From contig NW_006767438.1 of NCBI RefSeq assembly GCF_000264995.1, positions 1,922,953 through 1,986,952 on the forward strand: a stretch of 64,000 nt of DNA, written 5' to 3'. The notes under the pieces are model-generated. The model was not told the DNA's origin. It ran no database searches and worked only from the letters and a program-made list of their open reading frames with translations. Position numbers and translations under genes: made by a program. Positions 6,126-58,938 of this stretch are shown piece after piece; the stretch's first letter is position 1; every line of letters begins with the position of its first letter. The DNA comes from Punctularia strigosozonata HHB-11173 SS5 (taxonomy: Eukaryota > Basidiomycota > Agaricomycetes > Corticiales > Punctulariaceae).

Positions 6126-8014
6126 TCAATGATCGCCAGCTTTGCCTTCGGGCGTCCTCGTCTTGAATGCGCCGCGGCGACGGACGTCCAGCACGATTGC
6201 CTCCGCCCTCCGATACGCGTCCTCCTCGTCCCCTTCCCTCTGTCGGCCTGGATCGAGGGACCCCGTGAGCAAGGTACGAACAAAAGTACCAGCGCGATAG
6301 ACGAGCTTACCGACAATCGACCAGTTCCGCGTGCTCGGGATGCGCAGCATCTCGCACTCGACGTGCCACCCGCACCGTCTGCTGAGGCGCGCGAGCCAGG
6401 TGCGGTACGCCGCGTACGCCGAGTTTTCAGAGCCGATGCCGAGGTTCAGCCTGGCCAGAAAGTCGGATTCGTCGGCCTCGAGAGATGCGGCTGGTTCGGA
6501 GTCGTCCGAGGCGTGCTCTGACGAGGAGGGCTCCGGGAACGGCGCGGCTGCGTTACGCTGGAAGCGCTCGTCGAACGACCACGGGCAGCATGGGATGGAG
6601 AGGTACCCTGACGCATGGTGCAGCGTGGCGAGGACGGGGACCCAGGGCGTGAGCTCGTCAGCGTGATTCCCGATGATGAAGGTGCCAGGTCGCAAATACG
6701 GATCTTCGTCCACGTTTTCAGGATTGTCTTTGGAGATCGTCGAGGAGGATAGGCTTGGGTGAGGTGACGAGGAAGTCGGTGAGGGGGGCAACTTCGTAGG
6801 GTCCAGAGCGTGAACGCGGAGCGCGGCTTGAGTGGAGGCCGGGTAGTGCGCCCAGGACTGTCGTGCACGAACGTCGATGCCATAGCCGGCATATCCTTCG
6901 GATGTCAAGATGTGCACGAGGAGGCCGTTTCCGCACCTGTGGGGGGGCGACGTGAGCAGAGGTAAGCAAGGAGGTGGATGCTGGCGCGTACCCGAGATCA
7001 ACGAATCCACCAGGCGGTCGTCCCCAGCTCCGCCATGGGGTATCGCCGGTCGCGACTGGAAGATCCTCCGGGGATGGAGGAAACATCTCCTTCCAGAGCA
7101 GCATCAGGAACGTCGCGATTCCGATGTCCTACGTGAAGATAGTAGTCAGAGACTGCGAGGCAGAGATAGGGTGAAAGGTGGGCGTACAAGCTCGCGCCGA
7201 CTTACTTCGAACACGTGCTTGCGCGGGTCCGTCTTCTCCTGCCAGGTCCCGACGAGGTGCTTATGTCGCTCGCGCATTACGAGGTACAGATCCTGGTACG
7301 TCTCGCGCTGGAGGACATTGTCGTGCGCTACCCGCTTCTGGTAGTTGGTAAGCGCGCCCCAGCCATAGCGGTGGACGGTCTCGAGAAGGGCGAGCGCAGT
7401 ACGGTATAGGCGCGAGGATGGGTCGGTTGGCGTATCTGGGAGCGGCAGTACGTCGATGCGAAGGGTGTTCTCTGAGCTTGTAGGGGAGGTGACGTAGCGG
7501 AAGGCAAGGTGATGGACAGCGGGATGGTAGTAGGGTAACTCTTCGCCTGGCTTGACGAGAGGGGTGAGGACGAGGGTATGGGGAATCGGGTCTTCGGCAT
7601 TCACGGATGCAAACAGGGTGCAAATCTGTTCAAGTCCGGAATCTCGCCCAGGTCGGCGAGGCAGTAGGCGGCGATGAACTTGGCGTGTTGGTCGCGATCC
7701 TTCGAAGATGGGCGCCGCGCCCGCGAAGGCTGCGCTTTCCGTCGAGTCTGAGATCGTTTCTGATCGAAGGATCAGTGTTGAGTTGTATTCCGGATGATGA
7801 ATCAGCTGGAGAGCTGCTGGTTCGAACTACTATAGATCAGATGAGACGGGAGTAAACATAGACATGAACGCGATAAAACTGAATGCACCAGATGAGGCGG
7901 AAAACTTGCGTTGCACCGTATTAGCGAGACCCAACCACACGGGAGGGACGCCTCCTGTTCAGCCTGGCCGCCGGTAAGCGTAGGATTGAATTTGGGACGC
8001 AACGCTGAGTTCAT
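6126..8014 (-). CDS. TRM44: tRNA (uracil-2'-O-)-methyltransferase TRM44 (564 aa)
   Basis: Trm44 is the SAM-dependent enzyme that forms 2'-O-methyluridine at position 44 of tRNA-Ser in the cytoplasm. The four exons are 8014-7889, 7826-7206, 7128-6992 and 6936-6126; the introns are 62, 77 and 55 bp, and the frame is 565 codons including stop. Family marks in order are MNSALRPKFNPTLTGG, LQLIHHPEYNSTLILRSE, PGEELPYYHPAVHHLAFRY, RKHVFE-DIGIATFLMLLWK, the SAM-binding VDLGCGNGLLVHIL (about residue 292), the Trm44-specific IIGNHADELTPW, SIPCCPWSFDERF and the C-terminal RRRGAFKTRTPEGK. It is the only intact copy in the window. Broken copies are at 16870-17455 and 20985-22462. It is divergent to the membrane gene at 8821. 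Confidence 0.95.
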
Positions 8015-8820
8015 GGTGCGAGTTCGGGCAGAGCAAGCCAGTCCGTGTTAGGTAATCACGATCCTTGCCATGATGGGCTCTCGAGTCTCTGCTGATCGTT
8101 TGCGAGAATTTGGGCCTCTTACTCGCAGTATCAATTGCATCAAACTGGGAATACGCGGCGCGCGCTCATTTTGCGTCTCCAGTGCACGTTAGTGATGTGA
8201 TGAGACCGAACTTGGCATGTATAGCACCTGAGGAAGGGTACACTGGCATGTTCATGTCTCTCTGCGGACGCATCGCAAAGCAATGGACTGAGTTTGATCC
8301 TGACCACATGGGCGGTGGTAAAGCGTGAACTCGGAAGTACTATGCCATGCCTGACCTTTTTCAACTCACGAAAATTGTGGATCTGTCAGTGTGCGTAGGG
8401 GTAGCAAGTTATTCGTTATACACAGGGACCTACCCACGCAAGCATCATGCATCGTAAGCTCGCCTATACAACTACGTGCGTCGTATCTCTGATTTATCTG
8501 CAGCTGGAGCTGTTATCACCTCCGGCAGGAACGCCAATCTGGTCAAGGATCAGCCTTCGTGTGGGTGAGCATGCTGTGGACGCCACCGTTGTTGTGACGT
8601 CGCCTTTGGCCACGCAATTCCTGAATATGACCTCTTGTGCGCGGGCTCATTCATTCATTTTCACAGAACAAAAATACTCGCTCCACCCAGCGCTGATGCT
8701 ACGCAAGTGCTATCATGGACACATGCCTGTTCAAGCCCTCACCTATCACCCTGATAGTCTCCTTGTCCCCGGCAGGTCCCCGCACTACTCCCGTCATCGA
8801 CACTTCGATTCTGTCCTGCG
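8015..8820. promoter_or_regulatory. Divergent promoter TRM44 / membrane gene 1, with conserved TTAkGTAATnA box
   Basis: TTAGGTAATCAC at 8048-8059 lies 34 bp upstream of the TRM44 ATG. The same box occurs at the equivalent place before both TRM44 relics (TTATGTAATGATT at 17488, TTATGTAATCAT at 22489). That marks it as part of the duplicated unit and possibly as a promoter element. The rest of the 0.8 kb shows no supported exon. Confidence 0.45.
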
Positions 8821-10673
8821 ATGAATGCGACCCAAGCTAATGAACTCTTTACGGCTGATTTCAGTTCCCTCACACCTCTCTTGGTCACCGAGACATTTGC
8901 GTTCGGTGAGCCGGTTATCCACACGCGTTGCATTTTGCCGACACGTCCAATCCAGGCGTTACTAGCACGTCGGCTTTGTTAGCGGGTTATTGGGTGCTGT
9001 AATCAATGTCAGTTTGAGGGCAGTTATGTACGCTGACACCGTATTCCTGACAGGTTCCTTCAACCTCTCCATGCCATTCAAAAATCGCGGTTATTACTTG
9101 TGGCCGGACTTTACGGCCTCCTCGTCCTGCATTGGGCACTCTACTTTCGTAGTTACACACGCATTTTTGAAACACTGCGAGTTCATTATTTCCCTCAGAG
9201 TATCCCCATATTCATTGTTGCATCAGGGCCGCGAAGACGGCCGACATACCAACCACGGATTTCGCCTTGGTTGCTGGGTACTTCCAGGCCTCTTTCGGTG
9301 TAATAACTTTCCCCTTCATTACCGAAACTGTGCTCTTTGGTGGGTAGCATTTAACCCGCGACGTTGACACGGGTATAACAATCTCCCATATAGGCACTTC
9401 GGCAACACTTTTCGGATTGCTAGGCTTCTTGTCTCGTCGGTAAGCTGCGTATGATTCACCACGAGGTTCCTTCCCAACTGACAGTGGATAGGTACTCGAA
9501 CACGAGATACGGAACCCCAAGCAATCGTGTTATGTGGATCACAATATTTATCATGTTTTTAGCATGCGTGATACACTGGTCCACCAATCTGTGGACATGC
9601 ATTTCATTCCTTCAGCATTATGGCAGTGAAACGGATTTGGTACCGAACTGGTACGTATCCGCAGAGATCATCATGATCACCATCAATGTAAGTGCCCATA
9701 TAGACCCCTTGTGCTCGGACTCACCTTCATGATATGCTCAGGTTACACTGAGTGATGCTGTAGTCCTATGGCGGATGTGGATCATCTGGGACAGGAAACC
9801 AAGAATGCTGGTGTTATCAACCGTTTTGCTCTCTCTGACGCTAGGTATGTTATGGGCATCTATGTAATTTCAACTTCCTATGATTTCTGTCACTCAGGGA
9901 CATCCATTGCGAACATTGCACTCCTTTCCCGTTCATCTGTTCCTACCAGAGTGGATGACGAACAGCTGCTTCCTACTTTTGACTACAACACTCTTGGGTT
10001 GATAGCCAGCTTCTCCTCTACCGCATCAAACTTTATTGCTACAGGCTTCATCGCATACAAGGGATGGTCCGTGGTCTTTGTTCTCATGATCTCATGATAC
10101 GTTGATTGACAATGCTCTGATTTCCAATTGCCAGGAAACATCGTAAAACCATCTCAGCCGTTCTCAGCTCCGGATCACGCCGGTCTCTGGTGGAGAAAAC
10201 GATGAGCATCCTGATGGAGTCGGGCGCTATATATTGCTGTTTTTGGGCACGCATTCCGGCATACGGGATCAACTCTCTTTTTTTCTGATATCGCCTTCTC
10301 AAGGTTGTGTGGGCTGTCAGCGGAACAATAAACCGTTTCGTCCCGGAGAATGTACGGCGGACACAAGAGCTCGTAAGTCACCTGGATGCATCAATGGTGC
10401 AAATTATGGTGAGAACTTCGTTTTCTCCCTTCGAGCATGGCACCAAGTAAACCAATGCCGTTGAAACAGGCCATCTATCCCATGTTGATCCTGATACTCG
10501 TCGCATTGGAGCGTACGCATAGCGACCAGGGATTTATCGGCAGCGCACCCGCAAACACGGCCGATACCCCGGTCCGCGTCGTTCATGTGGCGGTAGACGT
10601 GGCGGGGGGTCGTGGGTTTGACCGCGACAGTGTAGGTCTAGAGTATGAAAAGGATTCAGAACTCGGAAAATGA
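8821..10673 (+). CDS. Multi-pass membrane protein, family copy 1 (432 aa)
   Basis: The family is of unknown function and Agaricomycete type. Exons: 8821-8905, 8956-8998, 9054-9176, 9227-9339, 9394-9439, 9492-9687, 9742-9844, 9898-10066, 10135-10246, 10304-10408, 10470-10673 (1299 nt, 432 aa). About eight hydrophobic segments are seen near residues 17-43, 54-75, 105-137, 150-175, 205-245, 270-292, 310-345 and 365-383. Landmarks are ETFAFG (exon 1/2), LHWALYF (exon 3), ETVLFG (exon 4/5), VIHWSTNLW (exon 6), SDAVVLWRMWIIW (exon 7), IAYKGW (exon 8), ESGAIYCCFW (exon 9) and IYPMLILILVALERTHSD (exon 11). Introns 3 and 9 use GC donors. The start is supported by MNATQ, matching (L)NATQ in copies 6 and 8. 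Confidence 0.88.
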
Positions 10674-10763: not shown

Positions 10764-11170
10764 ACTGAAAGGAATGAAGTCGAGAAAATGCGCCTGTGGA
10801 GGAACTTCAGGTGTATATTACCGACCGGCCGTGTGGCTAGCACGTGCAACTGCAGATTCCCAGAATCATCTATCTCCATTCATATCACTCCCTCGTGCAC
10901 AGACTCTGAAGGGCGGGAAAACATGGGTATTCAATGGGCCATATAAGGTGCGTCTTTGTAAATTAAGAATACAACATTGAGCATAGTCATCGTCTTGAGA
11001 TTATGAGCGACTAGAGTGTAATATTGTTACTCCAATTAAAATATTATGTGTCGCCGATGGCTGAGGACAATTGCACGCATTTGATACGATCATTCAATCT
11101 TCAAGATCCACCGCACATGTGACGAGGCAGTATGATGTGGAGCGCTTCGGTGCGCCTCTTCCGTCGTTGA
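10764..11170. repeat. Segmental duplicate of 22806-23300 (upstream flank of a membrane gene)
   Basis: This segment aligns over its whole length with the sequence just upstream of membrane gene 5 (start 23475). Shared strings include GTGTATATTACC, GAATACAACAT, GAGATTATGAGCGACTAGA, CATTTGATACGATCATTCA and GACGAGGCAGTATGATGTGG. It is non-coding. It ends directly against a relic of the family's last exon, so the pair is an internally deleted gene copy. Confidence 0.8.
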
Positions 11171-11177
11171 GATCGAT

Positions 11178-11440
11178 ATGGCCCCTTACGCAATCTCTCC
11201 ACTGAGGATTCTTGATCTTGTCGCCTTGAAGCGCACACATTGTGATCGCGGCTTCATGCTTAGCACACAAGACAGGGTCGCTCGAAGACGAACGGATTTG
11301 AACAACGTCAGTCAAATCGCTAGAGATCACGCAGAGAAGTGTGGAATAAGAATGGGTGCAGTCAATTCAGAATACACCGAGTCAAACACGACTAGCACGT
11401 GCTCGAGGAGAAATATAAATGATGGGTTGAATGTGCGACG
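11178..11440 (+). pseudogene. Membrane family copy 2: relic of last exon only
   Basis: The frame reads ISPLRILDLVALKRTHCDRG, then MLSTQDRV and QIARDHAEKC. It matches the last exon of copy 4 (IYPLLILILVALERTHCDRS.., HIARDTEAEC). Exons 1-10 are missing, and the preceding 400 bp match the 5' flank of copy 5. One large deletion between promoter and last exon explains this. It is not expected to encode a working protein. Confidence 0.75.
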
Positions 11441-12310
11441 ATGCAAACGACGCGACGCGGTCAGATGGATAATATAGCTTCAGACTATGGATATGATCGG
11501 ATTCATAGCCCCCGGACAACACAGTGTCGGAACCATCGGCATAGTATGCAGCATTCCCACAGTATACTCTACACTGAAGGTATATCGTTTACGGCATCCC
11601 GTCAGGTATGAACAGCATAACCAAGGAGGGGAAATGTGGCTCATGAATGTAGCTGTGCAGTATCTGAGCATGCATCCTGGGTATTCAAGAGCGTGTCCAA
11701 GACAATCTATGATATTCAGTCGGGTTCCATCAAGCATGGAAAATGATCGTAGCCACGCGCCGGTGTTCCCGAGCCACTCCGTCTATCACCCTACATCCCG
11801 GATTTCACATCTTCCTGAGCGAGCTGTCTCCGGCGATACTGCCATGCGCGAACACACTGCCTCGTATACTCCACGACCCTTGGAGCATTGATAGCAGCAA
11901 TGAGTCATCGCGAAGAAAGGACAAACAGGCTTGCCCCATCGGCACACCACGAGCACATGCTTGCACAACACCATCTTGTATTGCCACTTGTACTCCTCGA
12001 TGATGGGCTTGTGCTACTAGGGCATGACGAGGCATAGGTTCTCTCTCCAATTATGGACATCAAACTTACCGGTATGTTGCATGAACCTTCTCCATTTCCA
12101 CTTTTGCCGATGCACTGTGCTTCTCAGTAAGGCAGTGACACCGCATTTCCGCTTCTGTTTGATTGAGCTGGAAAGTTCACTAGGGTTAGCTAGCGATATA
12201 TCCAATATCATGTATGGTTCGCTTACTGCCATCGCTTGGGATATATGAGGCACAGCAGCGGAAGACTGGCGAGCTTTGCCCTTCTCGCCTACAAGCTGCA
12301 ATCCACTACT
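11441..12310. other. Intergenic, no gene seen
   Basis: There is no supported exon. Near 12190-12240 a short stretch resembles one near 17560-17620 (both read SLTAIAxDI in one frame). It may be conserved upstream sequence of copies 3 and 4, but it is too short to be sure. Confidence 0.4.
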
Positions 12311-15031
12311 ATGTCATTCACGAACGGCGGGATACACGCTGTATCTCGAGATGAATCTGTCTATAAGTCTGCCTATGACTATCTTGTACCTCTGTTGATT
12401 GTTGAGACATTCGCCTTTGGTAAGTAGTGAGGTGTACACTGCTTTCTATCTCATGCTTTGTGGTTAGGCATTTGCACTGTTTCCCTTCTAATCTTGGCAT
12501 ACTCCGTAACGTAGGAATCTGGATCATTACCTTACGTCTGACGTTTGGCTTAATATATAATTCTAGGTTCTTCAAGCAGCGGCGTTCCAGTCCCATATTG
12601 CAACTATCAGGCGCTATCGGATTCTATATGACATTCGCGCTTCACTGGGGTCTTTCTCTCCAGGGGTTCCGCAAGATATTTCATGGGATGTAAGCACGGA
12701 AAAGCCAAAAGTTATCACGCATTCTGATCCAGCACCAGAGCCGTTACGGAGTCATCAGATGTAGTCACGGATGCATCAATTCTGTTCGATGCGATGCTTC
12801 CTACTTACTTCCTTCCGTTCATCACAGAAACAGCACTCTTTGGTGAGCGTTTGATACAATGAAATATGTACTATGTGAGATAACCAAGCCCAATATTAAT
12901 AGGTGTTTCAACGACATTGTTCGCATTCATGTGGTATCTGATCGTCCGGTATGTAGTAATCCAATTCAATACTGCATATAGCTGAATATCCTTACAGTCG
13001 ATCTGGCTCGCCATTCGGGATATCTATCGTACACGGTAGTGCATGCGTCATGTACCTCGTGTCCGTTGCACACTGGGCCGTTGATCTCGCAGCATGCGTC
13101 ATGATGTATCACTGGACAAAGTCTGGTGAGCCTACGCTGAGTACTCCGGGACGCTATATGAGGTGGTATAGAGATGGAGATCTCATACTCATTACATTCA
13201 ATGTCTGTCTCAATATATATATCTGGAACACATACATAATTGACATCCATATTAGATCGTACTCAGCGATGCCATTGTGCTCTGGAGAATGTGGTTGATT
13301 TGGGGAAAGGGAGCTAGGGTCCTGATACTAGCAACTCTATGCCTGTCGTTGACCGCCGGTGAGCACATTTTTCAGCATAGGCTCATAGATAGGATTCACA
13401 TAATTGAAAGGCCCCTCAATATCCAATGCCGCTACCCTACTACACTCCAATGAAGATGAAGATAGCGAGCTTCATAATTCTGCTGTTCTACCCACCTTCG
13501 GCTCAACCAGCGCAGGAATGATCACCTCTATTTCATCCACGGCATCTAACTTCACCGCAACGAGCGCTATTGCCTACAAGGCGTGGTACGCGCACCCTTA
13601 GGTCTGGCCGCAGGGATAACAAATCTTGATTGCAGGCAACATCGCAAACTGCTTGCCGATAGCCTTCGCTGTAATTCTCGAAAAACGATGGCGGAAAGAA
13701 TCATGGTCATCATGGTGGAGTCTGGAGCGGTATATTTTGGCCTTTGGGTGGGTTCATACCCGTCCTCGGAACGTTTTCCGACTCCAATGCCCCAACAGAT
13801 TCTATGGATAGTCACCGGCATTCATGGCGTAGCAGCATTCGACAAGAACTGGTCAGCTGTCGACCACATGAATACCGCGATGGCACAAGTGACTGTGACA
13901 TCCTGACATCACTAGATCATAAGCATGCGCTACGCGACGCTGTACACCGATTATGGACATTTAACGTATTCCAGTGTATACAGGTTAGGGAATGATTACT
14001 TACATTTAGGGGCTTCACCTAGTAGTGTGCTTGACCCCGCTGATTAGTAGGCCTGAAATATGACCATGCTTGGCTTTCATCAATCAACACTTGATTTTGG
14101 TGTACGCTATTTTCAGCATGCTTGACTTCAAGCATCAGTGTGCATTACTAAGCGTGTGGTTACTCAGAGCATATGCTGATTAAACTGGCTGATTATTTCT
14201 TATCGTGCGTCACTCTTGAGTTATCAATTAGCATGCGTCAGTGAATGTTACTTATTAGTATGTACATGAATTCGCGAGTTTGAACAGTCCTTGTTGGTCT
14301 GGTGGATATCTTCTTACCGTGGGTTCCCATTGGCTTAGTGGTTAGCGTGCATTACAGTGAGTTATTCTCTTGGTCTAGTGATACCTTCTTACTGTGGTTT
14401 ACCGTTGGGTTATCCGCAATGCATTACAGTAGCCTATCTAACGGGTCTAATGATCATTCTAATCGTGTAACCATTCATGTACCACAACTGTTATCGCGGA
14501 CCATTCTTGCGCAGGAGCGGGATCGAACCCGAGGCGTGTGCAAAACCCAAGTGATCACATCAAGACGCGTTACCGCTCCACCATCGGAGCTAACTATGTC
14601 GCCACTCACGGCATTTTATAAACGCGTGTTCCTCCCAGCTGACGTCACTGCTTAATCAGACGCTCACATGACTCAAGGCCGCCAGCCAATCAGAATGACT
14701 TTTTGTCTTGTCTCGTGGGAAACATCCTTGCTTTAGTATAGAAGATTCGTCCGCCAGATAGTACGCTGACAATCTTGTGCAGTCCATTTACCCACTTGTG
14801 ATTATCATCCTCGTTGCCCTTGAGCGCACGTATTGCGACCGCCCATTCCCGGTAATCATGTCCGGCACCCCTCCCACGACGACGACAGTTTCCACCTCCC
14901 GTGGTCATCACATCAATATAGACATCGCCGTCGAACGGGAAACTGAAGGCGGCGATGGAATGTCACAAGTGGCGTCTGATCCCAGCACCTCTGATTTGAC
15001 AAGCAATGAAGCGGAGAAGATGGGGCGTTGA
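12311..15031 (+). CDS. Multi-pass membrane protein, family copy 3 (456 aa), with an 888-bp last intron
   Basis: Exons: 12311-12419, 12468-12510, 12567-12689, 12733-12842, 12903-12948, 12998-13202, 13256-13358, 13411-13585, 13636-13747, 13799-13894 and 14783-15031 (1371 nt). Exon sizes 43, 123, 46, 103 and 112 equal those of the paralogues. Landmarks: VETFAFG, LHWGLSLQ, ETALFG, AHWAVDLA, SDAIVLWRMWLIW, IAYKAW, ESGAVYFGLW and IYPLVIIILVALERTYCDR. All introns have GT donors, including intron 3, unlike copies 1, 4 and 5. Paralogues have a last intron of about 50-70 bp. Here it would be 888 bp and carries a tRNA-like repeat array. Either the intron was expanded by insertion, or the gene is split and no longer expressed whole. 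The last exon has a proper acceptor and an open frame. Confidence 0.78.
14294..14450 (+). repeat. Tandem tRNA-length (about 76 bp) units with A-box-like start
   Basis: Unit 1 (14294-14369) starts TTGGTCTGGTGGATATCTTC. Unit 2 (14370-about 14442) starts TTGGTCTAGTGATACCTTCT. A third, weaker start (GGGTCTAATGATC) is at 14443. Both main units share TTCTTACyGTGG, then GTT..C, then TGCATTACAGT at the same spacing. The first bases fit a Pol III A-box (TGGYNNAGTGG), as in tRNA-Asp/Glu. No complete cloverleaf is seen. The array lies inside the long last intron of copy 3, and a degenerate further unit may start near 14188. Confidence 0.55.
14514..14590 (-). pseudogene. tRNA-like sequence (A-box and B-box, fold not complete)
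   Basis: On the minus strand TGGTGGAGCGG (14583-14573) is a perfect A-box. GGTTCGATCCC (14529-14519) is a B-box lacking one base. The spacing is about 10 bases longer than in an intron-less tRNA. I could not fold an acceptable anticodon arm, and the T-arm has a 6-base loop. It is a tRNA-derived relic or, less likely, an intron-containing tRNA. Confidence 0.4.
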
Positions 15032-15159: not shown

Positions 15160-16835
15160 TTACTGTCTCAACAGCACCCTGATCGGATCCGGAACATCCG
15201 GCCTCTTCTCCCACTCAGTCATCCACCCCTTGCTCGCGCCCTTCTCATTGCCAATGTTCGGCTTCCCAAACACCGCCGTGACGTACCACACGTCGCCCTC
15301 GGTCGGCTCCACTGTGTCCAGTAAAGTCGGTAAGACAGCTCTCGCCCACATCAGGCTCGAGTTAGCGTCGGTCCGGATGACTTTTCCTTCCCTCTGCTTT
15401 CTGTTCCCCAGCTCGACGATCGCAGACGCACCCGCCCGCGAGTGCGCCCGCGCCTCGGGACCCTCTTGCCAGAATCCAAAACCACCTTCGACCGACTTGT
15501 CCACGGGATCGAGGTGTCGTCCGTCCGGGCGCTGGCCATAGATCGCCCAAGCGCCTTCGGCCGTCCATATCTTCCGCCCCGCCCGAACGCGATGTACACG
15601 CACGTGCCACAGCGGCGCGGCGGGCGTCGGCGGCACGAGCCACGTCTCGACCTCCACGTCCGCCCAGGGATACCACATCGACCTCAACCAGCCGCCGTCG
15701 TTCTCAAACCTGAACTCCTCCGTCTTCCGCCTCGCGCGCCACGTCTCGCCGTCGTCGTCGGAGAGAAGCAACGCGCTATCTCCAGCATGTTCCTCAAGCG
15801 TGCCGTCACCAACAGGGACGCTGTACGCGAACGCGGCGCTGTACGCAAACTTGCCGTACTTGGCCGCGCTCTGCTTGACTGGATAGCTGCATCGCTGCCC
15901 GCTCGAGAGCACGTACGTGTGCCCGCCGAGGTTGGTCGCGATATGGAGCGGCTTGTAGAGCGGTTTAACCGTCTCCCTCAACGCCGAGGGGAATGGCTCC
16001 TCCACGGATGACCAGAAAGGGTGAGTCTCCGGCAGCGCGAGCGAGACGAAGCTCTTGCAGCACCGGTGAGCGACCCGGGCGAGTTGTAGTTCTCGGTTAG
16101 GTTAAAGTTCGGGTAGGCATAACCGAGGGTAAGGGTGCTATCCGGATTGTAAGCACCAGGTTGCGCGGCTCAGTAACGGAGATCTCGAAGTTGAATCCCT
16201 CTGACGACGCCTCAGGTGAGGGGTGCGGGAAGTTCCACATCTGCGAAGGATAGAGCGCCCCTTCCTGACCGCCTTCCTCGATCCCCTCGCTTCACACGCA
16301 TCGCCGGGAGGCTCACGCATCCACCTCGGCCATACATGAGCGCATTTTGACGACACCGTTGCACAGCTCAAAAGGTTCGCTCGACCTCTCTGAGGCCTCG
16401 AGTCGTTGATCGCAGGCGAAAAGACTGGTCTCGCGATGGCCCAGAGGGCGTTGTACAGTACGCGACGCGTCCGTATCACATTTTGCATTGCTGATCGTAC
16501 TTATTATTCATCCGCGTTCGCGATCCAGTTCGCGCAACTCGTCCATCCGAGGCTATCCCAGACCGAGGGTCCCGAGCGATGCGAAGCATTCCGCCAACGT
16601 GCGCGTCAGTTCGTGCTCGATTTCGTCCACTATTTCGACGACGAAGGTACGCCCGTTTTGGTTTTTCTATTCCTCCAGACGATGCTTCCGCCCTCAGGTC
16701 GTGCAGTCGCCTTTGGCCGCTCGCTCGTATACCGCTTCGAGATGTCATCATTTTGGCCGCAACATCGGAACGAATTCGTAGCGGGTTCGCTGCGTATGGC
16801 GTGGTATGCTGGAAGGTCTTGACGAAGGAGGACAT
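15160..16835 (-). pseudogene. Broken, internally inverted copy of the DUF2264 gene
   Basis: The C-terminal half (16005-15160) is almost identical to 27150-26305 of the intact gene, including [20 protein letters not shown] and RDANSS-like blocks, so the copy is recent. The N-terminus ([20 protein letters not shown], from 16835) is also present. The middle, about 16262-16780, reads in the plus direction: [19 protein letters not shown] at 16262, then [10 protein letters not shown] and [16 protein letters not shown], ending MSSFW. Within the inverted piece, residues about 76-190 of the parent are deleted and stops occur. It cannot encode the protein. Its 5' end abuts a TRM44 relic. Confidence 0.85.
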
Positions 16836-16869
16836 GGGAGGATGGGCAAGCACAGGGCAGTAGCGAGCA

Positions 16870-17455
16870 TGGGTCGGCTGGCATATCCGGGAGTGGAACC
16901 GCTCTCATACGAAGGGCATTTTCTGAGTACTTAGGAGATGTGATGTAGCGGAAGGCGATGTGGTGGACGGCGGGGTGGTAGTAGGGCAACTCTTCGCCGG
17001 GCTTGACGAGAGGGGTGAGTACAAGGGTGTGAGGTACAGCGTCTTCGTGTACTCGGATGCAAAAAGGGTGCAAAGCTGCTCAAATCCGGAATCTCGCCCA
17101 GGTCGGCGAGGCAGTAGGCGGCGATGCGTGTTGGTCGCGATCCTTCGAAGATGGGCGCCGCGCCCGCGAAGGCCGCAGTCTCCGTCGAGTCTGAAATAGT
17201 TTCTGATCGTATGATCAGCGTCGAGTTGTATTATGGGTGATGGATGAGTTGCAGGGCGGCGGCTTCGAACTACCATAGATCAGATGAAATGAAGTAAACA
17301 TAAAGATCATCGCGATGAGATGAACGCACCAGATGAGGCGGGAAACTGGCGTTGCTCTATACCAGCGAGGACCAACCGTACGGGAGGGCCATTTCCTGTT
17401 CATCTTGGCGGCAGGGCAGCGTAGCATCGAATTTGGGACGTGCAGCGGGGCTCAT
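16870..17455 (-). pseudogene. TRM44 relic 1 (5' third only)
   Basis: It starts MSPAARPKFDATLPC, followed by a stop where the parent has CGG (SLV*SNASF). Exon 2 similarity follows: AAALQLIHHP (then a stop), LIIRSETISDSTETAAFAGA, PGEELPYYHPAVHHIAFRY. Similarity ends near PADPCSLLP, where the DUF2264 relic begins a few bases downstream in the same direction. The SAM-binding part is absent. It lies 704 bp upstream of, and divergent to, membrane copy 4. Confidence 0.85.
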
Positions 17456-18158
17456 TGTGCGAGAGTGGCGGACGAGCACGCTCTCCTTATGTAATGATTG
17501 ACCTGTGGGTTTTCGGCTTCGAGTTTCCTGTCCGTTCGCTGCCTCCGAGTTCTCAAGCTTGCATGCGATACAATACGTACGCGTGGTCGCTTACAGCCAT
17601 AGCATACGATATTCTGCTGTAGCCTCCCGAGTGCATGCTCTTCTATCAGCGAGAGCTAAGGGATTGAGTGCTGCCAAGTATATTCGAACAAATACCTAGT
17701 TATTATTGAATTTGAGGCAGAGCAGATATTGAGCATGGCACACCGGGTACTGAAAGTTAATTACTCCATTCTTGAAGAAACTCTCCAGTCATCCAGTCTC
17801 AATATCGGTCGGATGGTGGACAAGTGGAACCGACGGATCCGAGGTTAAACTTCAAAGTCGTGTGGTTCGCCGTCCCAAACTCACGGGCACTGCGGTTCCA
17901 TATCTCATTTTCTCGTTATAGGCTCATCCTAAGCCATAGAGGTCCTATCTACCCAACTACCGTCATAGATAGCAGATAGCAGAAATAGAAATAGTGCTGC
18001 TCAATTATCTGCTGTGCATCATGCATCGACATTGATGAGCGCTCTGTTACCATTCCATATTTTTGCGTGGTGTCATGCGGTATCCAAGTTGATGGAGTGC
18101 GCGGTATAAAGTGGCCTCTCTGTTTACCTCTTGAGTCGCTTCCACCTGCTCGCCCACC
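17456..18158. promoter_or_regulatory. Divergent spacer TRM44 relic 1 / membrane copy 4, with TATA box
   Basis: TATAAA at 18105-18110 is 49 bp before the ATG of copy 4. TTATGTAATGATT (17488) is the conserved box described for the TRM44 promoter. No coding exon is supported. Confidence 0.45.
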
Positions 18159-19987
18159 ATGGCGTCTGTGTCTGTTAATTCCACACAAATCCATGACATG
18201 TTCGTGACGGAATGGAAATACCTTGCTGCTCCTTTCATCATTGAGACGTTTTCCTTCGGTGAGCTGTCGACTCAAGCTTTGCAGATGGTAGCGCTTACAT
18301 ACGCTTCCGTGAGGCGTCGCCATTACCTCAACTCTAACTTGGGGGTATTGGCTCCTGTGATTGACAAGCATCTACTTGGCCAGCACATGGGGTGACTTAT
18401 GTTGGTCATAGGTTGCTCCAGTCTCGTCTGGCTATCCCAAAGCTTCAACTGGTTCTTGTAATGGGAGGATGCGGCCTTATTACTCTCCAGTGGGCACTGC
18501 ATGTCCGAGCTTTCTACGGCATATTATACACATTGCATGTCTTGCATCACTCATGATATCTAATCTGATGTGACCATAGGGCTCTTGGTATCATGAAAAC
18601 AGCCCCCCTCCCTAGCATGTTAGCGATAAGCCTCAATATACCTGGAGTTTATCTCCCATTCATCACCGAGACCGCATTATTTGGTGAGCGAATAGATATC
18701 AACGTGTGAAAATTCAATCAGCTCATGGAGAATATAGGATGTTCAACAACGCTGTTTGCACTGCTATGTTGTCTAAATCTTCGGTAACTGAGTGTCTTTC
18801 ATCACATGGCTCCGATACTCAAACAGAAATGGTTCTAGCATGCGGTTAAGTGCCCCTAATAAACGTGCTGTCATCGTCATTGTATGCGCGATGTACGCGG
18901 TCTGTGTATCTCACTGGTCCTTCAATCTATGGACATGCATTGCCTGGTTCATCTACTACACGGATTTTGATGGGGCCGTCCCGTCATCTAAATCTTATAT
19001 AGGTCTCATCATCATCACAATCAATGTATGTGCATTCATTTCTCCTGCTGCTGTTTAGCATTGATTGTTCATATAGGTCGTTATAAGCGATTCTGTCGTG
19101 TTGTGGCGCATGTGGATTATTTGGAATAGAAAGCGGAATATATTCATTCTATCGGTAATCTTGCTCTTCCTGACAATAGGTGAGCTGTTATGTGTGCTCG
19201 ATGTCGAAAATATCGCGAATTAACTCTGTAACTGAGGATCATCCATCGCAAACATCGCTCTCACTCGAGCCTCTGGAGACACTCGTCATGGGGAATTCAT
19301 AGCCCTTCCTACATTCAGCTATAATACATGGGGCCTGGTGACTAGTGCTTCGTCAACTGCGTCCAACATGATAGCTACCTGCTTGATTGCATATAAGGGA
19401 TGGTTTGTATCCTCCATACTTCTATCTTGGTATATGGCCTGTTATTAATGCGTAACTACGTAGGAGGCATCGGGCAACGATTACCGCGAGTCTCAGGAAT
19501 GGTACTCGTCGCACTCAGGCTGAGAGAACAATGAGTATTCTGGTTGAATCGGGCGCCATTTACTGTGTATTTTGGGCAAGTCCTCATAACTCTAATAATC
19601 CTGATGGATTTTTTTTCTCATCTAACACACTCGAAGATTGTTTGGGTTGCCATCTCGGTCCTAGAGACTCCCCGCCTCATTGATCATGTTGGTACCGCGA
19701 TGGCGCAAATCACGGTGAGTCCTACCAAATGCACGTCTTTCAGTCAGCTGACACCTCCTGCTTAACAGGCAATCTATCCTCTGCTGATCTTGATCCTCGT
19801 CGCCTTGGAACGTACGCACTGCGATCGCAGTTTCATTGTCAGCAAGCTAGGCGCTGTGGCCCAAGGACCAGCCGTTGACGACCATATCATGCATATCGCC
19901 AGAGATACGGAAGCGGAATGTAACGATTGGGAAACTACCGATTCCAACAGAACCAGCACATGCGAAGAACCAAAACACGACGCTTGA
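18159..19987 (+). CDS. Multi-pass membrane protein, family copy 4 (430 aa)
   Basis: Exons: 18159-18258, 18314-18356, 18412-18534, 18580-18683, 18738-18783, 18827-19025, 19077-19179, 19237-19402, 19464-19575, 19637-19714, 19769-19987 (1293 nt). Landmarks: IETFSFG, LQWALHV (Gln replaces the first-half His), ETALFG, SHWSFNLW, SDSVVLWRMWIIW, IAYKGW, ESGAIYCVFW and IYPLLILILVALERTHCDRS. Introns 3 (ATT|GCATGT) and 9 (TGG|GCAAGT) need GC donors to keep the frame, exactly as in copy 1. Closest in structure to copies 1 and 5. The cytosolic tail of about 55 residues after the last segment is polar and unlike the other copies. Confidence 0.88.
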
Positions 19988-20984: not shown

Positions 20985-22462
20985 GGTGACCCAGAACATG
21001 TAGCTCTGCGGGCTTTCCGATGACGAATGTGCCGAGGCGCAAGTGCACCGCTTCGCCTTCAGCCGAGAGAAGAGGATGGAAATGCCGTGGGGACCGAGGG
21101 GAGCTGGGGTCGAGGCCGGGGAGTACGCCCAGAGTCCTCGCGCGACGGATGTTGATTCTGTATCCGGTGTAGCCTGCAGGGGCAAGTACATGCACCAGTA
21201 GTCGTCTTCCTTACCTGTGTGTCGGAGTATCATTAAAGGAGGCAGTCCGAGGAGTGAATGGTAGAGCGCACCCTCAATCAACATGCCCACCGGGCGGTCG
21301 CTCCCAGCTTTGCCACGGGTATCGGTGGTAGACCATGGAGAGGCCCTGGGACGCGGGGAACATCTCCTTCAATAGCAGCACCAGGAATATCGCAACATCG
21401 ATTCCCTAGATCAAGGGTTTAGTCATCTCCTGCGACGCAGAGATAGGGTGCGAAGAGGGCGTACAAGCCTGCACTGATTCACTTCGAACAAGTACTTGCG
21501 CGGGTCGGTCGTTTTCTGCCAGGTCATGACAAAATGCTTCTGTCGCTCGCGGATCACGAGTAGGTCTCGCGGGAGAGGAGGTTGTGCAATGGACGGTTAC
21601 GAATAGGGCGAGCGCAGTGCGGTGTAGGCGTGAGGATGGGTCGGTTGGCGTGTCCGGGAGCACAGCACGTCGATGTGAAGAGTAGTTTACGAGCTTGTAG
21701 AAGAGGCGAGGTGATGGACGTCGGGCTGGTAGGAGCCTGAGGGCAACTCTTTGTCTGACTTGACGAGCGCAGTGAGTACGAGGGTATGGCGTGGTGCGTC
21801 TTCGATGTTCTTGGATGCAAAGCAGCACAAACCTGCTCGATTCGACCGTCCTAGCGAGGCCGGCGCGGCAGGAGGTTGGTCGCGATGTTGCGGATAAGTG
21901 CAGCGCGCGCAAATACTGTGGCCCCCGCCAAGACTGATATCGCTTCTGGTTGGAGCATCAACCTCGATTCGTATTCCGGGTGATCGATGAGTTGCAGAGT
22001 GCAAGGCTCGGACTGCGATGGATCGATAGTTCGGATGAGAGGGAAGGAAATTATTAATACCATCGCGACGCGTCTCGTGCGTGCCGTTACCGATGGGTAC
22101 GCTATAAGGTAGCGCATCCTGCCCAGGGCCGCGAGACAATACATACCGATGGACATTGAATGTTGGTTGCGAGCCTTCGAAATGAGCGCGGCGCCACGAA
22201 GGCTGCCACTTCGGTTGGGTCTAAAATTTTCTAATCTGAGAATCAGCGTCGAGTGGTCGTCTGGATATGGAATATTTGCAGCACGGCGGAGTCGAACTAC
22301 TACATATCGTATAAGATGGAAGTGAACATGGATGGCAGTACAACGCATGAGCGCACCAGAACGATACATCGTGCCAACCTAACCAGACGTAAGGGCCGTC
22401 TTCCGATCCGTTCGGATTCCCAATAGCGTAGAATCGAGTCTTGGACGCGGCGTTGCACTCAT
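20985..22462 (-). pseudogene. TRM44 relic 2 (longer, heavily decayed)
   Basis: Similarity starts at MSATPRPRLDSTLLG (22462) and continues with DHPEYESRLMLQPEAIS, DKELPSGSYQPDVHHLA and the SAM-region remnant VHVLAPAGYTGYRINIR with its downstream LRLGTFVIGKPAELHVLG (parent LRPGTFIIGNHADELTPW). Frameshifts and stops are frequent. Key residues of the SAM site and of the NHxDELTPW motif are lost. It is older than relic 1 but covers all four parental exons. Confidence 0.8.
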
Positions 22463-23474
22463 TGGGCAGAGTTACGAGCCTTCCTTCCTTATGTAATCAT
22501 CTACATTTCCCGCTCTGCAGTGGCAGCGACTGGCTTCTAGCTTTTTTGGTTGACAATGCGTTATTCGATCCATCTCTTCCATGCTTCACAGCTGCCAGCA
22601 TGCTCACTTTCTCGCTGGTTATGTTTCACCGTAATGGTACACTGTCTCCGTCATAGTGGGCACAGGTCTTCCCAATCTTACGAGTACCTAGATGTGGGCT
22701 GACTTATTTTCATAGCGATGCATGCGAAGAGGGGACATGGTTTGCTCATATCGTGGCATACAGAGAGGCTCGCTGCATGTAATCATTCATACTTCGAGCT
22801 TCATATCCATGTTATGGAGGGGAAGAAGTCGAGAATTTACGCTTGTGGAGTAACTTCGAATGTATATTACCAATCGGCCCTGTGACTCGTCCCGTGCAAC
22901 TGAAACTTGGCAGCATGCACTGTCGAAAAGGGATGCGGATTCGGTGCATTTGCCGTTATCCTGCGATTGAGTTTTGGAGCCGGTTACCAAAATCATCGAT
23001 CTCCGTTCATATTACCTGTTGTATAATCTGGTTCCATGCATAGACTCCGATGGGCGGGGGAAAATAGGTATTGGATTGGCCATATGAGGTGCGACTTTGT
23101 GAATGAAGAATACAACATGGAGCATACTCATCGCCCTGAGATTATGAGCGACTAGAATGTAACAGTCTTATCCCAATTAAAATACGATGTGTCACCGATA
23201 GCTGCGGACAATCGCCCGCATTTGATACGATCATTCAGGATCCACAGCACATGTGACGAGGCAGTATGATGTGGAGCGCGTCGGTGGGCCTCTGCCGTCG
23301 TTCGAATCTCTCTGGATGCAATTGGGGATCTCGCTACGCTTATGCCGGGGAATGCTCGAAGTCGCTGCGGATCTAGGAGACCTTTATAGAGGCAGGGTCC
23401 AACTCGATGTCAGGCCATCAAACTTTTTCTCCATCCAAATTGCAACGAGTGTGTCGTCAAGGCGGACATAAATC
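22463..23474. promoter_or_regulatory. Spacer TRM44 relic 2 / membrane copy 5, contains duplicated flank
   Basis: TTATGTAATCAT at 22489 is the third example of the TRM44 promoter box. Positions 22806-23300 duplicate 10764-11170. No exon is supported. Confidence 0.5.
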
Positions 23475-25378
23475 ATGTCTTCCGATTACATTGGCGTCAG
23501 CCCAGCACCAGAAATAGTGTTTGCTGATGACTGGAACATCCTAACGGCCCCCTTGGCTGTCGAGACATTCGCTTTTGGTACGGGGCCTCCAAGATCGTAT
23601 CCTTTATCACCAAGCTCATACCTAAACCAGGTGCTGCCGGTGTTGCAATCGTTTTGTGGACTTATTGGCTGGTGTAATCGAAGCATTCTCATGCACTGTA
23701 CGGCTGAATGACATCAAGTGGATCACAGATTTATACAGCCTCGTAACGAAGTGCTCAAATCTCGGATTCTCCTTGTTTTTGGATTGTATGGATATCTGAT
23801 TATCCACTGGGCCATGTCTCTCAGTGCTTACATCCGCGTTGTGTCAAGATTGCAAGTCTTTACATGTTTTTTCTCAAGAATCTCCTAATGTTTTTGTAGC
23901 GATCCGAGCCTGTCAAATAAACTTGCGCTCAGCCCCGTAGACTATGAAGCTCTCATTTACCTGATTACTCTTCCGTTCATTACCGAGACTGTCCTCTTGG
24001 GTGAGCATATAGCAGGAATATTGTTGCACATTACTGACAGTCATTTTAAATCCAGGGAGTGCAACCATGCTTTTTATCACACTGTCCTATTTTCTACTCA
24101 AGTAAGTAGGTGTGCAATTAACGGATATGTCACCTCATTAATACGCCGCAATAGGCGGGCAAAAATGCAACAATTTACCCACTCCAGTAACTTGGTGATC
24201 AGGATGGTTGTATGTGTAATGTATATAGCCAGCATTCTTCACTGGTACATCAACCTCCGCATGAGCCGTGTATGGATAGGTTCATTCAAGAGGCATTGGA
24301 TTGTGACATTTTCAACAACGTGGTATGACGTCGCGGAGCTCTCCCTTGTTACCATCAACGTATGTGCCATCAGAATAAACGTTCGTATACTCACAATCAT
24401 ATATCAGATTACCCTCAGTGATTCCATCGTACTCTGGCGCATGTGGATCATTTGGGAGAAAAGGCGCTGGTCTATGATACTGTCGGTCGTGCTGATATCG
24501 CTGACAATGGGTAAGCTGACCAACATCGAAGTACGGTGTATATTTAATGACCACCACATCTTAGCGTTCTCTATTGCCAATGTCATCAGTAACACGCGAA
24601 CCTCTCCCCTCCCTACCCTCGCTGTGCAGGTATTGCCAACATTCAGTTACAACATCTGGGGACTTGTGACCAGCTGCTCCTCCATGGCGAGTAATCTCAT
24701 TGCTACTGGGCTTATAGCATACAAGGGATGGTCGGTTTGTCCATTAAGATTCTCGTCCATTGCGACTAAGGTTGCTCTCAGGAAGCATCGCAGGATGATC
24801 AAGCAAAGCCTGATAGAGGGTTCCACTCGTACTATTGCCGAGAGAGCCCTGAGTATTCTCATAGAGTCGGGTGCTTTCTACTGCTGCTTCTGGGTCAGTT
24901 AACAAGTTGCGAAGTGTGGATGTGTATGAATATGCTGACTCTATGCCGGCAGATTGTGTGGGTCACGGTCTCCATGTACAACGCTTTTTGTCCGCCGCAC
25001 ACGGGGTTCACCAACGTAACCTCCATGGAGCAGCTTGAGAGCAATATGGACACCGCTATGGCGCAGATTATGGTGATTGTCGTTCATTGCTACCCGGATA
25101 CGGAGATTGATTGTGCTCAATAGGCAATCTATCCGATGCTGATATTAATCCTCGTTGCCCTAGAACGAACCAGTTGCAATCGCAATTTCAGCTCAGGCTC
25201 ATCGATAGGAGTCGGAAGGGCTCAGATCACTCCTAACCAGGTCCTACATATTACCATTGGTGATACACCCGCTTCCGAGGGCAAGCACTGCGAAGGAGCC
25301 GGCGCAAGGGAGTGCGGACACACGGATACACTCTCAATCACAAGTACGGTCGGAGTGGACGACGAGGATCAACGTTAA
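23475..25378 (+). CDS. Multi-pass membrane protein, family copy 5 (458 aa)
   Basis: Exons: 23475-23577, 23633-23675, 23729-23851, 23900-24000, 24056-24101, 24155-24359, 24408-24510, 24565-24730, 24782-24893, 24953-25072, 25124-25378 (1377 nt). Landmarks: VETFAFG, IHWAMSLS, ETVLLG, LHWYINLR, SDSIVLWRMWIIW, IAYKGW, ESGAFYCCFW, IYPMLILILVALERTSCNRN. The last motif departs from THCDR of the other copies. Intron 3 has a consensus GC donor (ATT|GCAAGT), whereas intron 9 has GT. Exon 10 is longer than in copy 4 and adds a polar loop (NAFCPPHTGFTNVTSMEQL). Confidence 0.87.
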
Positions 25379-26304: not shown

Positions 26305-28407
26305 TCACTGAGGAATCAGCATTTCGATAGATTTCGGAACATCCGGCCTCTTCTCCCACTCAGTCATCCACCCCTTGCTCGCGCCCTTCTCATTGCCAAT
26401 GTTCGGCTTCCCAAATACCGCCGTGACGTACCACACGTCGCCCTCGGTCGGCTCCACTGTGTCCAGTAAAGTCGGTAAGACAGCTCTCGCCCACATCAGA
26501 CTCGAGTTAGCGTCGGTCCGGATGACTTTTCCTTCCCTCTGCTTTCTGTTCCCCAGCTCGACGATCGCAGACGCACCCGCCCGCGAGTGTGCCCGCGCCT
26601 CGGGACCCTCTTGCCAGAATCCAAAACCACCTTCGACCGACTTGTCCACGGGATCGAGGTGTCGTCCGTCCGGGCGTTGGCCATAGATCGCCCAAGCGCC
26701 TTCGGCCGTCCATACCTTCCGCCCCGCACGAACGCGATGTACACGCACGTGCCACAGCGGCGCGGCGGGCGTCGGCGGTATGAGCCACGTCTCGACCTCC
26801 ACGTCCGACCAGGGATACCACATCGACCTCAACCAGCCGCCGTCGTTCTCAAACCTGAACTCCTCCGTCTTCCGCCTCGCGCGCCATGTCTCGCCGTCGT
26901 CGTCGGAGAGAAGCAACGCGCTATCTCCAGCATGTTCCTCAAGCGTGCCGTCACCAACAGGGACGCTGTACGCGAACGCGGTGCTGTATGCAAATTTGCC
27001 GTACTTGGCCGCGCTCTGCTTGACTGGATAGCTGCATCGCTGCCCGCTCGAGAGCACGTACGTGTGCCCGCCGAGGTTGGTCGCGATATGGAGCGGCTTG
27101 TAGAGCGGTTTAACCGTCTCCCTCAACGCCGAGGGGAACGGCTCCTCCGCAGATGACCAGAACGGGTGGCTCTCGGGCAGCGCGAGCGAGACGAAGCTCT
27201 TGCAGCACCAGTAAGGCGACCCGGGCGAGTTATAGTTCTCGGTCAGGTTGAGGTTCGGGTAGGCGTAGCCGAGAGTAAGGGTGCCATCCGGATTGTAAGC
27301 ACCAGGTTGCGCGGCCCAGTAACGGAGGTTTCGGAGTTGAATCCCTTTGACGACGCCCCAGGTGAGGGGTGCGGGGAGTTCCACATCGGCGAAGGCGAGT
27401 GCGCCCCAGAATGATGACATCGCGAAGCGGTATACGAGCGAGCGGCCGAAGGCGACTGCACGACCTGAAGACGGAATCAACGCCTGGAAGAAAAGCGAGA
27501 TCAAAACAGGCGTACCTTCTTCGTCGAAGTAATGGACGAAATCAAGGGCGAACTGACGCGCGCGTTGGCGGAATGCTTCGCATCGCTCGGGATCCTCGTT
27601 TTGGGCTAGCTTCGAATAGACGAGTTGCGCGAACTGGATCGCGAACGAGGACGAATAATAATCCAATCTGACAAGTATGGTCAGCGACGCAAATTGCGAT
27701 ATGGACGCGTCGCGTACTGTACAACGCCCTCTGGGCCATCCCGAGACCAACCGTCACCCACGTAAAAAGTATCGAGGTGGTCCATATCCTTCTTCGCTCG
27801 AGAGAGATCGCCATACTTCGAGCCATTCTTCGCGAGACCGAGATTGGCGAACACCTACGAGTCGATTATGATCAGCCTCACGCGCAGTGTCGATTGACAA
27901 CTAGAACCGCACCCTGAACCACAGCCAGTTCGTATTCGGCATTTCTTTCGTGTTCATCACGTTCAACCACCGCCCTACGTTCTCCTTCGCCTCCTCGCTC
28001 AGCGGATCCCACATCTCCCTTCCCGCAACCGCCAGCGCGAACCCAATCGGCGAGCACTCGACCATCCTTTGATCGCGGTCGCGCATCTCTCCCCAATATT
28101 CCTCCCCATTCGGATCCGTCCCGCTCGCCAGTCCCCTCGCCCAGCGTTCCACGCCTGCATACGTCCCTCCACCTGCGATCAACGACGCGAGGCCCCAGAG
28201 AGGTCGAGCGAACCCTTCGAGCTGTGCGGCGGTCTCGTCGAAATGCGTTCCTGTATGGCCGAGGTGGATGCGTGAGCCTCCTGGCGATGTGTGTGACGCG
28301 AGGGGGTCGAGGAAGGCGGTCAGGAAGGCCGCGACATCGGAACGAGTTCGTAGCGGGTTCGCTGCGTATGGCGTGGTATGCTTGAAGGTCTCGACGAAGG
28401 AGGACAT
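26305..28407 (-). CDS. DUF2264 domain protein (647 aa)
   Basis: This protein belongs to a family of fungal and bacterial proteins of unconfirmed function, thought to have an alpha-toroid glycoside-hydrolase or lyase-like N-terminal domain. Exons: 28407-27913, 27854-27718, 27667-27516, 27464-26305; introns of 58, 50 and 51 bp. The 51-bp intron is in frame, so a read-through model would add 17 residues, but the splice join [20 protein letters not shown] restores the family pattern. Marks: [65 protein letters not shown], and [18 protein letters not shown]. No signal peptide is evident, so the protein is probably cytosolic. It is the intact source of the broken copy at 15160-16835. Confidence 0.92.
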
Positions 28408-58635: not shown

Positions 58636-58938
58636 GAACGTAGTCATGGCCCAGCTTACGGTGTGATCCTGCTCCTGCCGTGGTATCGCCATCCGCATGT
58701 GGAACTAAGTACATCACTATCCCAGTCTATCTACCCGTTACTGGTCCTGCTTCTTGTGGCCCTCGAGCGTACACACTGCGATCGTGCCTTTTCGTTCAAC
58801 GAGCCTGTCACCGAAGAGCTCGTATTCTCCTCGCCTGCCATCATGAATATTGTTCGCCGCGGCAACAATGAAAAGGCGTCACGCAAACATGAACTTCTAT
58901 CCAAGAGCACGGTTGTAGTAGGTTTATTCCGTACATAG
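58636..58938 (+). pseudogene. Membrane family copy 7: 3' fragment (end of exon 10 and exon 11)
   Basis: NVVMAQLT-like text (VVMAQLT before GTGTGA at 58661) is followed by an intron ending CCCAG at 58723. Exon 11 then reads SIYPLLVLLLVALERTHCDRA and FNEPVTEELVFSSPAIMNIV. It is nearly the same as copy 6 over this part. Upstream, only weak similarity to exon 10 remains and exons 1-9 are absent. Confidence 0.8.

Follow-up and report, generated by a model that had tools for sequence, protein, structure and literature searches.

Probable ancient duplication of a two-helix exon module in a clustered family of predicted fungal membrane proteins

Results

Six 11-exon genes form an array on one strand

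The DNA analyzed here is a window of 64,000 nt with a GC content of 53% that looks like eukaryotic, fungal DNA with short introns. It carries six complete copies of an 11-exon gene as a same-strand array on the forward (+) strand, in agreement with the original prediction of a family of six paralogues. We built the gene models by three-frame reading and splice-site placement, so that all exons and proteins described below are predicted from DNA alone. In each gene, we refer to exons 1 to 3 as module A and to exons 4 to 6 as module B, and the interval 8821–9687 that was initially highlighted corresponds exactly to exons 1 to 6 of copy 1.

Copy 1 illustrates how the predicted membrane segments (TM) are distributed over the exons. 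Exon 1 (8821–8905, +) encodes the N-terminus and the first half of TM-A1 and ends with the motif ETFAFG in phase 1, the second half of TM-A1 follows in the 43-nt exon 2 (8956–8998, +; phase 1 to phase 2), and exon 3 (9054–9176, +; 123 nt) contains TM-A2 with an HW motif and terminates in phase 2 with a GC donor. Exon 4 (9227–9339, +) comprises a linker and the first half of TM-B1, ending with ETVLFG in phase 1; the 46-nt exon 5 (9394–9439, +) supplies the second half of TM-B1, again from phase 1 to phase 2, and exon 6 (9492–9687, +) encodes TM-B2 with HW, a loop, and the start of TM3 before ending in phase 0. The remainder of TM3, TM4 to TM7, and the C-terminal tail are encoded by exons 7 to 11 (9742–10673, +).

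The other five models have the same 11-exon layout on the + strand: copy 2 at 12311–15031 (module A 12311–12689, module B 12733–13202, last exon 14783–15031), copy 3 at 18159–19987 (A 18159–18534, B 18580–19025), copy 4 at 23475–25378 (A 23475–23851, B 23900–24359), copy 5 at 52512–54516 (A 52512–52916, B 52967–53476), and copy 6 at 59735–61689 (A 59735–60148, B 60193–60696). All six have an intact frame with no internal stop and share the phase series 1,2,2,1,2,0,1,2,0,0 for introns 1 to 10. Several exons are moreover of constant length in every copy (exon 2 with 43 nt, exon 3 with 123 nt, exon 5 with 46 nt, exon 7 with 103 nt, and exon 9 with 112 nt), which makes the gene models firm even without transcripts.

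Copy 2 had been considered as a broken gene on the basis of a 374-aa model, and this was ruled out when its last exon was located beyond an intron of 888 nt. This intron 10 (13895–14782) compares to only 49 to 65 nt in the other five copies, suggesting an insertion; Tandem Repeats Finder detected no array in the region 13880–14800. Copy 2 entered all other analyses minus its last exon, which leaves modules A and B unaffected.

Fragments and repeats elsewhere in the window

Besides the complete genes, the window contains two orphan 3′ fragments of the family. The one at 58633–58935 belongs to an additional family member, of which it retains the end of exon 10 plus exon 11 (profile E 2.4e-14), and over positions 58637–58855 it is 77% identical at the DNA level to 54200–54418 of copy 5; upstream of it, the profile search listed no family exons at a convincing E-value. 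A degenerate, last-exon-like orphan lies between copies 1 and 2 (11136–11474; E 1.6e-10 to the C-terminal profile), and the block 10896–11168 beside it is 84% identical to 23037–23302 upstream of copy 4.

Further repeats involve other sequences. Two DNA copies with a DUF2264 gene (15190–16261 and 26335–27407) are 96% identical and are surrounded by more matching fragments in both orientations. A 2-kb direct repeat of about 66% identity occupies 29724–31753 and 32373–34414. Finally, a reading frame with a Pfam AdoMet_MTase match (6126–7010, − strand) is overlapped or flanked by repeats shared between 7412–8022 and 16863–17463 (80% identical) and between 6826–7838 and 21103–22024 (65%).

Introns and motifs recur in modules A and B

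In all six copies, introns 1 and 4 split the Gly codon of a motif of the form E[TS]xx[FL]G after its first base, i.e., in phase 1. Introns 2 and 5 are both in phase 2 and lie only one codon apart relative to each other, reflecting exons of 43 and 46 nt. Both introns internal to the repeated unit thus agree in phase in each of the six genes, the first at the same codon and the second one codon off. When two introns were placed randomly in an 84-residue module, equal agreement was obtained in 79 of 1,000,000 trials under a simple model that ignores real biases of intron position. This match is independent of the motif-based protein signal described below.

The original prediction had described these features in somewhat stricter terms than the six copies allow. 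The near-equal size of exons 2 and 5 and their common phase 2 end apply throughout, as does the phase 1 intron within Gly at the ends of exons 1 and 4, but the proposed E-T-x-x-F-G sequence before it is looser, reading ESFAFG at exon 1 of copy 5 and ending in LLG or FLG at exon 4 of copies 4 and 6, respectively. For exons 2 and 5, a beginning with T/S-T-x-L is a trend rather than a rule. Exons 3 and 6 do each contain one hydrophobic segment in every copy; the HW motif assigned to both is present in exon 6 of all six genes and in exon 3 of four, with QW in its place in copies 3 and 6.

Profiles of the two modules align colinearly

We compared alignments of modules A and B from all six copies (exons 1 to 3 against exons 4 to 6) using hhalign and obtained a match with E = 1.9e-6, a score of 39.2, and a probability of 89.6 over 77 aligned columns, in which ET..FG lands on ET..FG and HW on HW. 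None of 500 shuffles that preserve hydrophobic class reached this score, with a mean of 11.4 (sd 2.2) and a top score of 22.3 (E 0.0031) for 300 column shuffles of B and a mean of 11.6 and top score of 23.6 for 200 shuffles of A. Module A against reversed B gave no significant match (score 13.0), and neither module matched the rest of the protein, which was cut into seven overlapping windows (scores of 8 to 14, E of 0.1 or more). The profile-profile comparison suggested with the original prediction places its two halves above the shuffles and above the other segments of the same proteins (39.2 versus 8 to 14).

The match is also colinear. TM-A1 aligns to TM-B1 with E 1e-4 and TM-A2 to TM-B2 with E 4.9e-4, and no match was seen with hhalign for the cross pairs A1-B2, A2-B1, A1-A2, and B1-B2 (E of 0.2 or more). 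Similarity persists when the copies are split, with E 1.8e-4 for A of copies 1 to 4 against B of copies 5 and 6 and E 3.5e-4 for the reverse split. Searched over the six frames of the window, the B profile retrieves the A exons of copies 3, 5, and 4 with E-values of 0.0067, 0.018, and 0.031, respectively; the A profile finds no significant B exon, its best one (E 0.63) ranking behind a chance match to a TM3-TM4 exon at 0.34.

Masking defines where this signal resides. With the six ET..FG columns masked, the E-value for A against B rises to 5.8e-4 (score 26.0), and masking of both ET..FG and HW abolishes the match (E 0.13, score 13.4). The protein signal thus rests largely on two short motifs, with similarity elsewhere not being significant. 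The insignificant alignment obtained after double masking keeps the register of TM1 within two columns (16–59 on 28–69, compared to 14–92 on 26–108).

The repeat ends within exons 3 and 6

It had been proposed that exons 1 to 3 as a whole are repeated as exons 4 to 6 in every copy. This holds for exons 1 and 2, which correspond to exons 4 and 5, and for the TM2 part of exon 3, whose counterpart is the TM2 segment of exon 6 alone; exons 3 and 6 as entire units do not match. Exon 3 has 123 nt and ends in phase 2, whereas exon 6 has 196 to 214 nt and ends in phase 0, so that the boundaries of the units are not equivalent. These unequal ends limit the repeat unit and leave the homology of the remainder untouched.

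Since exon 6 reads on uninterrupted into the beginning of TM3 before ending in phase 0, the donor of exon 3 has no counterpart in module B. Three of the six copies (1, 3, and 4) have GC at this donor, compared to two of the 53 introns elsewhere (Fisher p 0.006, with intron 10 of copy 2 left out of the count). Over all 59 counted introns, the five GC-AG introns are introns 3 and 9 of copies 1 and 3 and intron 3 of copy 4. One reading of the exon 3 donor is that a weak donor was recruited, and another reading is that module B lost the corresponding intron.

Age of the probable duplication and coding status of module A

Mean sequence identity is 34% among A modules, 33% among B modules, and 19% between A and B. 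A FastTree phylogeny places the six A modules apart from the six B modules with a support of 1.000 (some branches on the B side have support down to 0.14). Together, tree and identities indicate that the duplication predates the split of the six genes. A and B modules of the same gene are 20% identical, hardly different from the 19% overall, so that there is no sign of later homogenization and gene conversion between A and B inside a gene was rejected.

In all 15 pairs of copies, pN is lower than pS for module A (means of 0.445 and 0.756), and so it is for module B (0.484 and 0.751) and the rest of the protein (0.395 and 0.792); given that synonymous differences are near saturation, these ratios are only a weak and mild sign of constraint. 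An in-frame Met precedes the motif within exon 4 of copies 2, 3, and 5 and is absent from copies 1, 4, and 6. Copy 6 has an in-frame ATG just upstream of the chosen exon 4 acceptor, which makes the absence clear-cut for copies 1 and 4 only, and these two copies led us to reject exon 4 as the true start in the main reading. From the constant exon lengths, the absence of Met, and the pN/pS comparison, much the best reading is that A is joined to B in one predicted protein.

Predicted topology of the product

Hydropathy analyses give nine peaks for copy 6, ten for copies 1, 3, 4, and 5, and eight for the shortened copy 2, where TM5 is missed and TM7 lies outside the truncated sequence. The additional peak is found just before TM-B1 in copies 1, 2, 3, and 4 and in the N-terminal stretch of copy 5. 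Two AlphaFold2 models computed with alignments of four of the six proteins each predict nine long helices plus shorter ones, and at mean pLDDT values of 47.7 and 44.4 they were used for helix counts alone. The stretch before TM-B1 of copy 1 forms part of one long helix in these models, again at low pLDDT. A product with nine membrane segments thus appears quite likely from these predictions, rather than the 8-segment protein that had been envisaged initially, and ten segments are conceivable for copies 1 to 4 given the peak before TM-B1.

The loop between the two helices carries a net positive charge in both hairpins of all six copies (+2 to +4 for A1-A2 as well as for B1-B2), and the TM5-TM6 loop is at +5 to +7 in the five copies where it is resolved. 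The TM3-TM4 loop is positive in copies 1 to 4 and neutral in the remaining two. Values for the B2-TM3 loop lie between −4 and +3 (the latter in copy 4), and the tail that follows TM7 is close to neutral and not generally positive. On balance, these charges fit an orientation in which the N-terminus is outside and hairpins A and B are parallel. The addition of two helices leaves the orientation of the core unchanged, and this may be why it was tolerated.

Relation to known families

None of the six proteins (copy 2 minus its last exon) matches a Pfam family at the cut-off. The models of DUF6533 and DUF6534 matched none of them at E up to 5, in a search whose filters drop most matches above about 0.1, and the Pfam models of receptor families of any GPCR class likewise matched none of the six. 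Matches to MARVEL (B hairpin of copy 2, E 0.0014) and RAMP (copy 5, E 0.021) stayed below the cut-off, concerned one protein of six each, and were discarded. NCBIfam, a bacterial and archaeal library searched with copy 1 only, gave no match. Four PDB entries matched the sequence profile and none is a credible relative, with a chromatin-remodelling protein as the best one (E 0.21) and a relaxin receptor chain at E 3.4 dismissed as noise. Pattern searches of viral and prokaryote contigs yielded 38 and 55 stretches, respectively, and no relative was confirmed in either set.

Helix count and most loop charges of the six proteins would fit a GPCR-like protein, with a neutral TM3-TM4 loop in copies 5 and 6. 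It is possible, if somewhat short of probable, that the core formed by module B and TM3 to TM7 acts at the plasma membrane as a seven-helix, receptor-like signaling protein, against which hairpin A would be packed.

Discussion

Modules A and B are almost certainly homologous through an ancient duplication. Profile similarity, the colinear correspondence of TM1 with TM1 and TM2 with TM2, and the shared positions and phases of introns all back the ancient exon-module duplication of the original prediction. The accompanying idea that this built an 8-segment protein from a smaller one needs to be revised, because the repeat puts a two-helix hairpin before a larger core and is not the doubling of a small protein. 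The explanation that we favor for the locus as a whole, and that we regard as very probable, is that the stretch encoding TM1 and TM2 was copied before itself, that the cluster then spread, and that the product has nine helices. In the common ancestor of the six genes, exons 1 and 2 together with the TM2 part of exon 3 and the introns between them would have been copied ahead of the original stretch, either through intragenic unequal crossing-over or because the 5′ part of a tandem copy became fused to the next complete copy. The former first exon would thereby have turned into exon 4, now internal and with a newly gained splice acceptor, and a phase 2 donor behind the copied TM2 would have been recruited that was weak enough to be GC in three of the six copies. 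The gene would subsequently have multiplied along the chromosome with both modules retained, and its product would run from an N-terminus outside through hairpin A, hairpin B, and TM3 to TM7 to a C-terminus inside. That module A is the added copy and the ancestor was a seven-helix protein seems likely to us.

Other origins of the pattern have to be weighed against this explanation. ET..FG and HW could have evolved twice as motifs that TM1-TM2 hairpins need for their function, with the introns matching by chance, and the loss of the profile match upon masking of both motifs speaks for such convergence. Yet the motif is cut at the same base in both modules, and the exon that follows agrees in its phases and almost in its length, for which function offers no explanation; introns placed at random match as well in just 79 of 1,000,000 trials, and the double-masked alignment, insignificant as it is, keeps TM1 in register within two columns. 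Convergence thus appears extremely unlikely. It is similarly hard to place exons 1 to 3 outside the protein, as the remnant of a truncated tandem copy or as a separate short gene upstream of a gene that starts in exon 4. Fragments do arise in the cluster, as seen from the orphan 3′ exons, the donor of exon 3 is GC in three of six copies, and exon 4 of copies 2, 3, and 5 offers an in-frame Met before the motif. Exon 4 of copies 1, 4, and 6 lacks such a Met, though clearly so only in copies 1 and 4, and in all six copies the exon lengths of 43 and 123 nt and the phase 2 junction between A and B are preserved, with pN below pS across module A in 15 of 15 pairs. Intact preservation of this kind would hardly be expected six-fold of a remnant, which makes a start of the gene in exon 4 very unlikely.

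Within the duplication explanation itself, the event may have been a fusion of two tandem gene copies, by a deletion that joined intron or exon 3 of the upstream copy to the 5′ end of the downstream copy, instead of an intragenic duplication. The genes form a same-strand array with broken pieces nearby, and the donor of exon 3, which has no counterpart in exon 6, is more often GC than those elsewhere (three of six versus two of 53, Fisher p 0.006), as if a cryptic donor had been recruited at the breakpoint. Both routes lead to the same product, however, and nothing in the window separates them; we give the fusion somewhat less than even weight.

Whichever route module A took, joining exon 1 to exon 5 or exon 2 to exon 6 preserves an open, stop-free frame in all six genes. 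A splice-switchable receptor could therefore be imagined in which one gene gives rise to the nine-helix form or to a seven-helix form with an A/B hybrid TM1-TM2 hairpin and an A-type N-terminus, and the weak GC donor after exon 3 of three copies would then bias the choice of splicing. The in-frame joins follow automatically from a phase-preserving duplication and are no evidence of use, and we consider such switching unlikely.

The duplication of exon modules is an established process, and membrane proteins commonly contain internal repeats; SWEET, aquaporin, and similar proteins repeat large units. Membrane proteins built from smaller helical units by assembly or duplication, among them SWEET, aquaporin, and GPCRs (PMC7162841), resemble the present case in that a helical unit is repeated within one chain. 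Unlike in the SWEET or aquaporin type, it is one hairpin that is repeated here, in parallel orientation and ahead of a seven-helix core. Tandemly duplicated exons with alternative use (PMC9741552) similarly are adjacent exon copies with preserved intron phases, whereas the locus described here repeats a multi-exon module of which both copies are apparently used together in the predicted protein.

SNB1 (Snowball), a DUF6533 protein of unknown mechanism, has a predicted topology of seven helices, N-terminus outside and C-terminus inside (PMC10949477); the loop charges suggest the same topology for the core of the proteins studied here. PMC12842992 proposes a large DUF6534 group as GPCR candidates, mentions that some of the ten largest clusters are mostly without Pfam domains, and notes nine helices for class 11 fungal GPCRs. 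The six proteins resemble the basidiomycete DUF6533 and DUF6534 proteins, whose function is unknown, as fungal membrane proteins with a seven-helix core (PMC10949477, PMC12842992) and differ from them by two extra N-terminal helices and the lack of a match to either Pfam model at E up to 5. They further share nine predicted helices and a receptor-like appearance with the class 11 receptors (PMC12842992), and with no Pfam family at the cut-off there is no sign of homology between the two. Our literature search, which covered few subscription papers and is therefore weak evidence of newness, found no description of the hairpin A/B repeat among the records listed. Particular to this locus is that a single parallel hairpin was probably added to a seven-helix core in an unnamed family. 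Some seven-helix mushroom proteins have a motif resembling ET..(Y/F)G in TM1 together with one resembling ESGA.Y in a late helix, and they constitute a lead for a single-module ancestor.

The six genes thus illustrate a route by which a seven-helix protein may gain a hairpin without flipping its core, namely by copying TM1-TM2 at the level of exons, of which the intron phases remain as a lasting trace. Since the intron pattern outlasts sequence similarity, it could be used to look for the same event in related families, and relatives with a single module would provide a date for the duplication. The family, of which none of the six proteins matches Pfam at the cut-off, falls in an area in which many seven-helix proteins of mushrooms still await a function. 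Its proteins probably grew from seven to nine segments long ago by copying part of their own gene.
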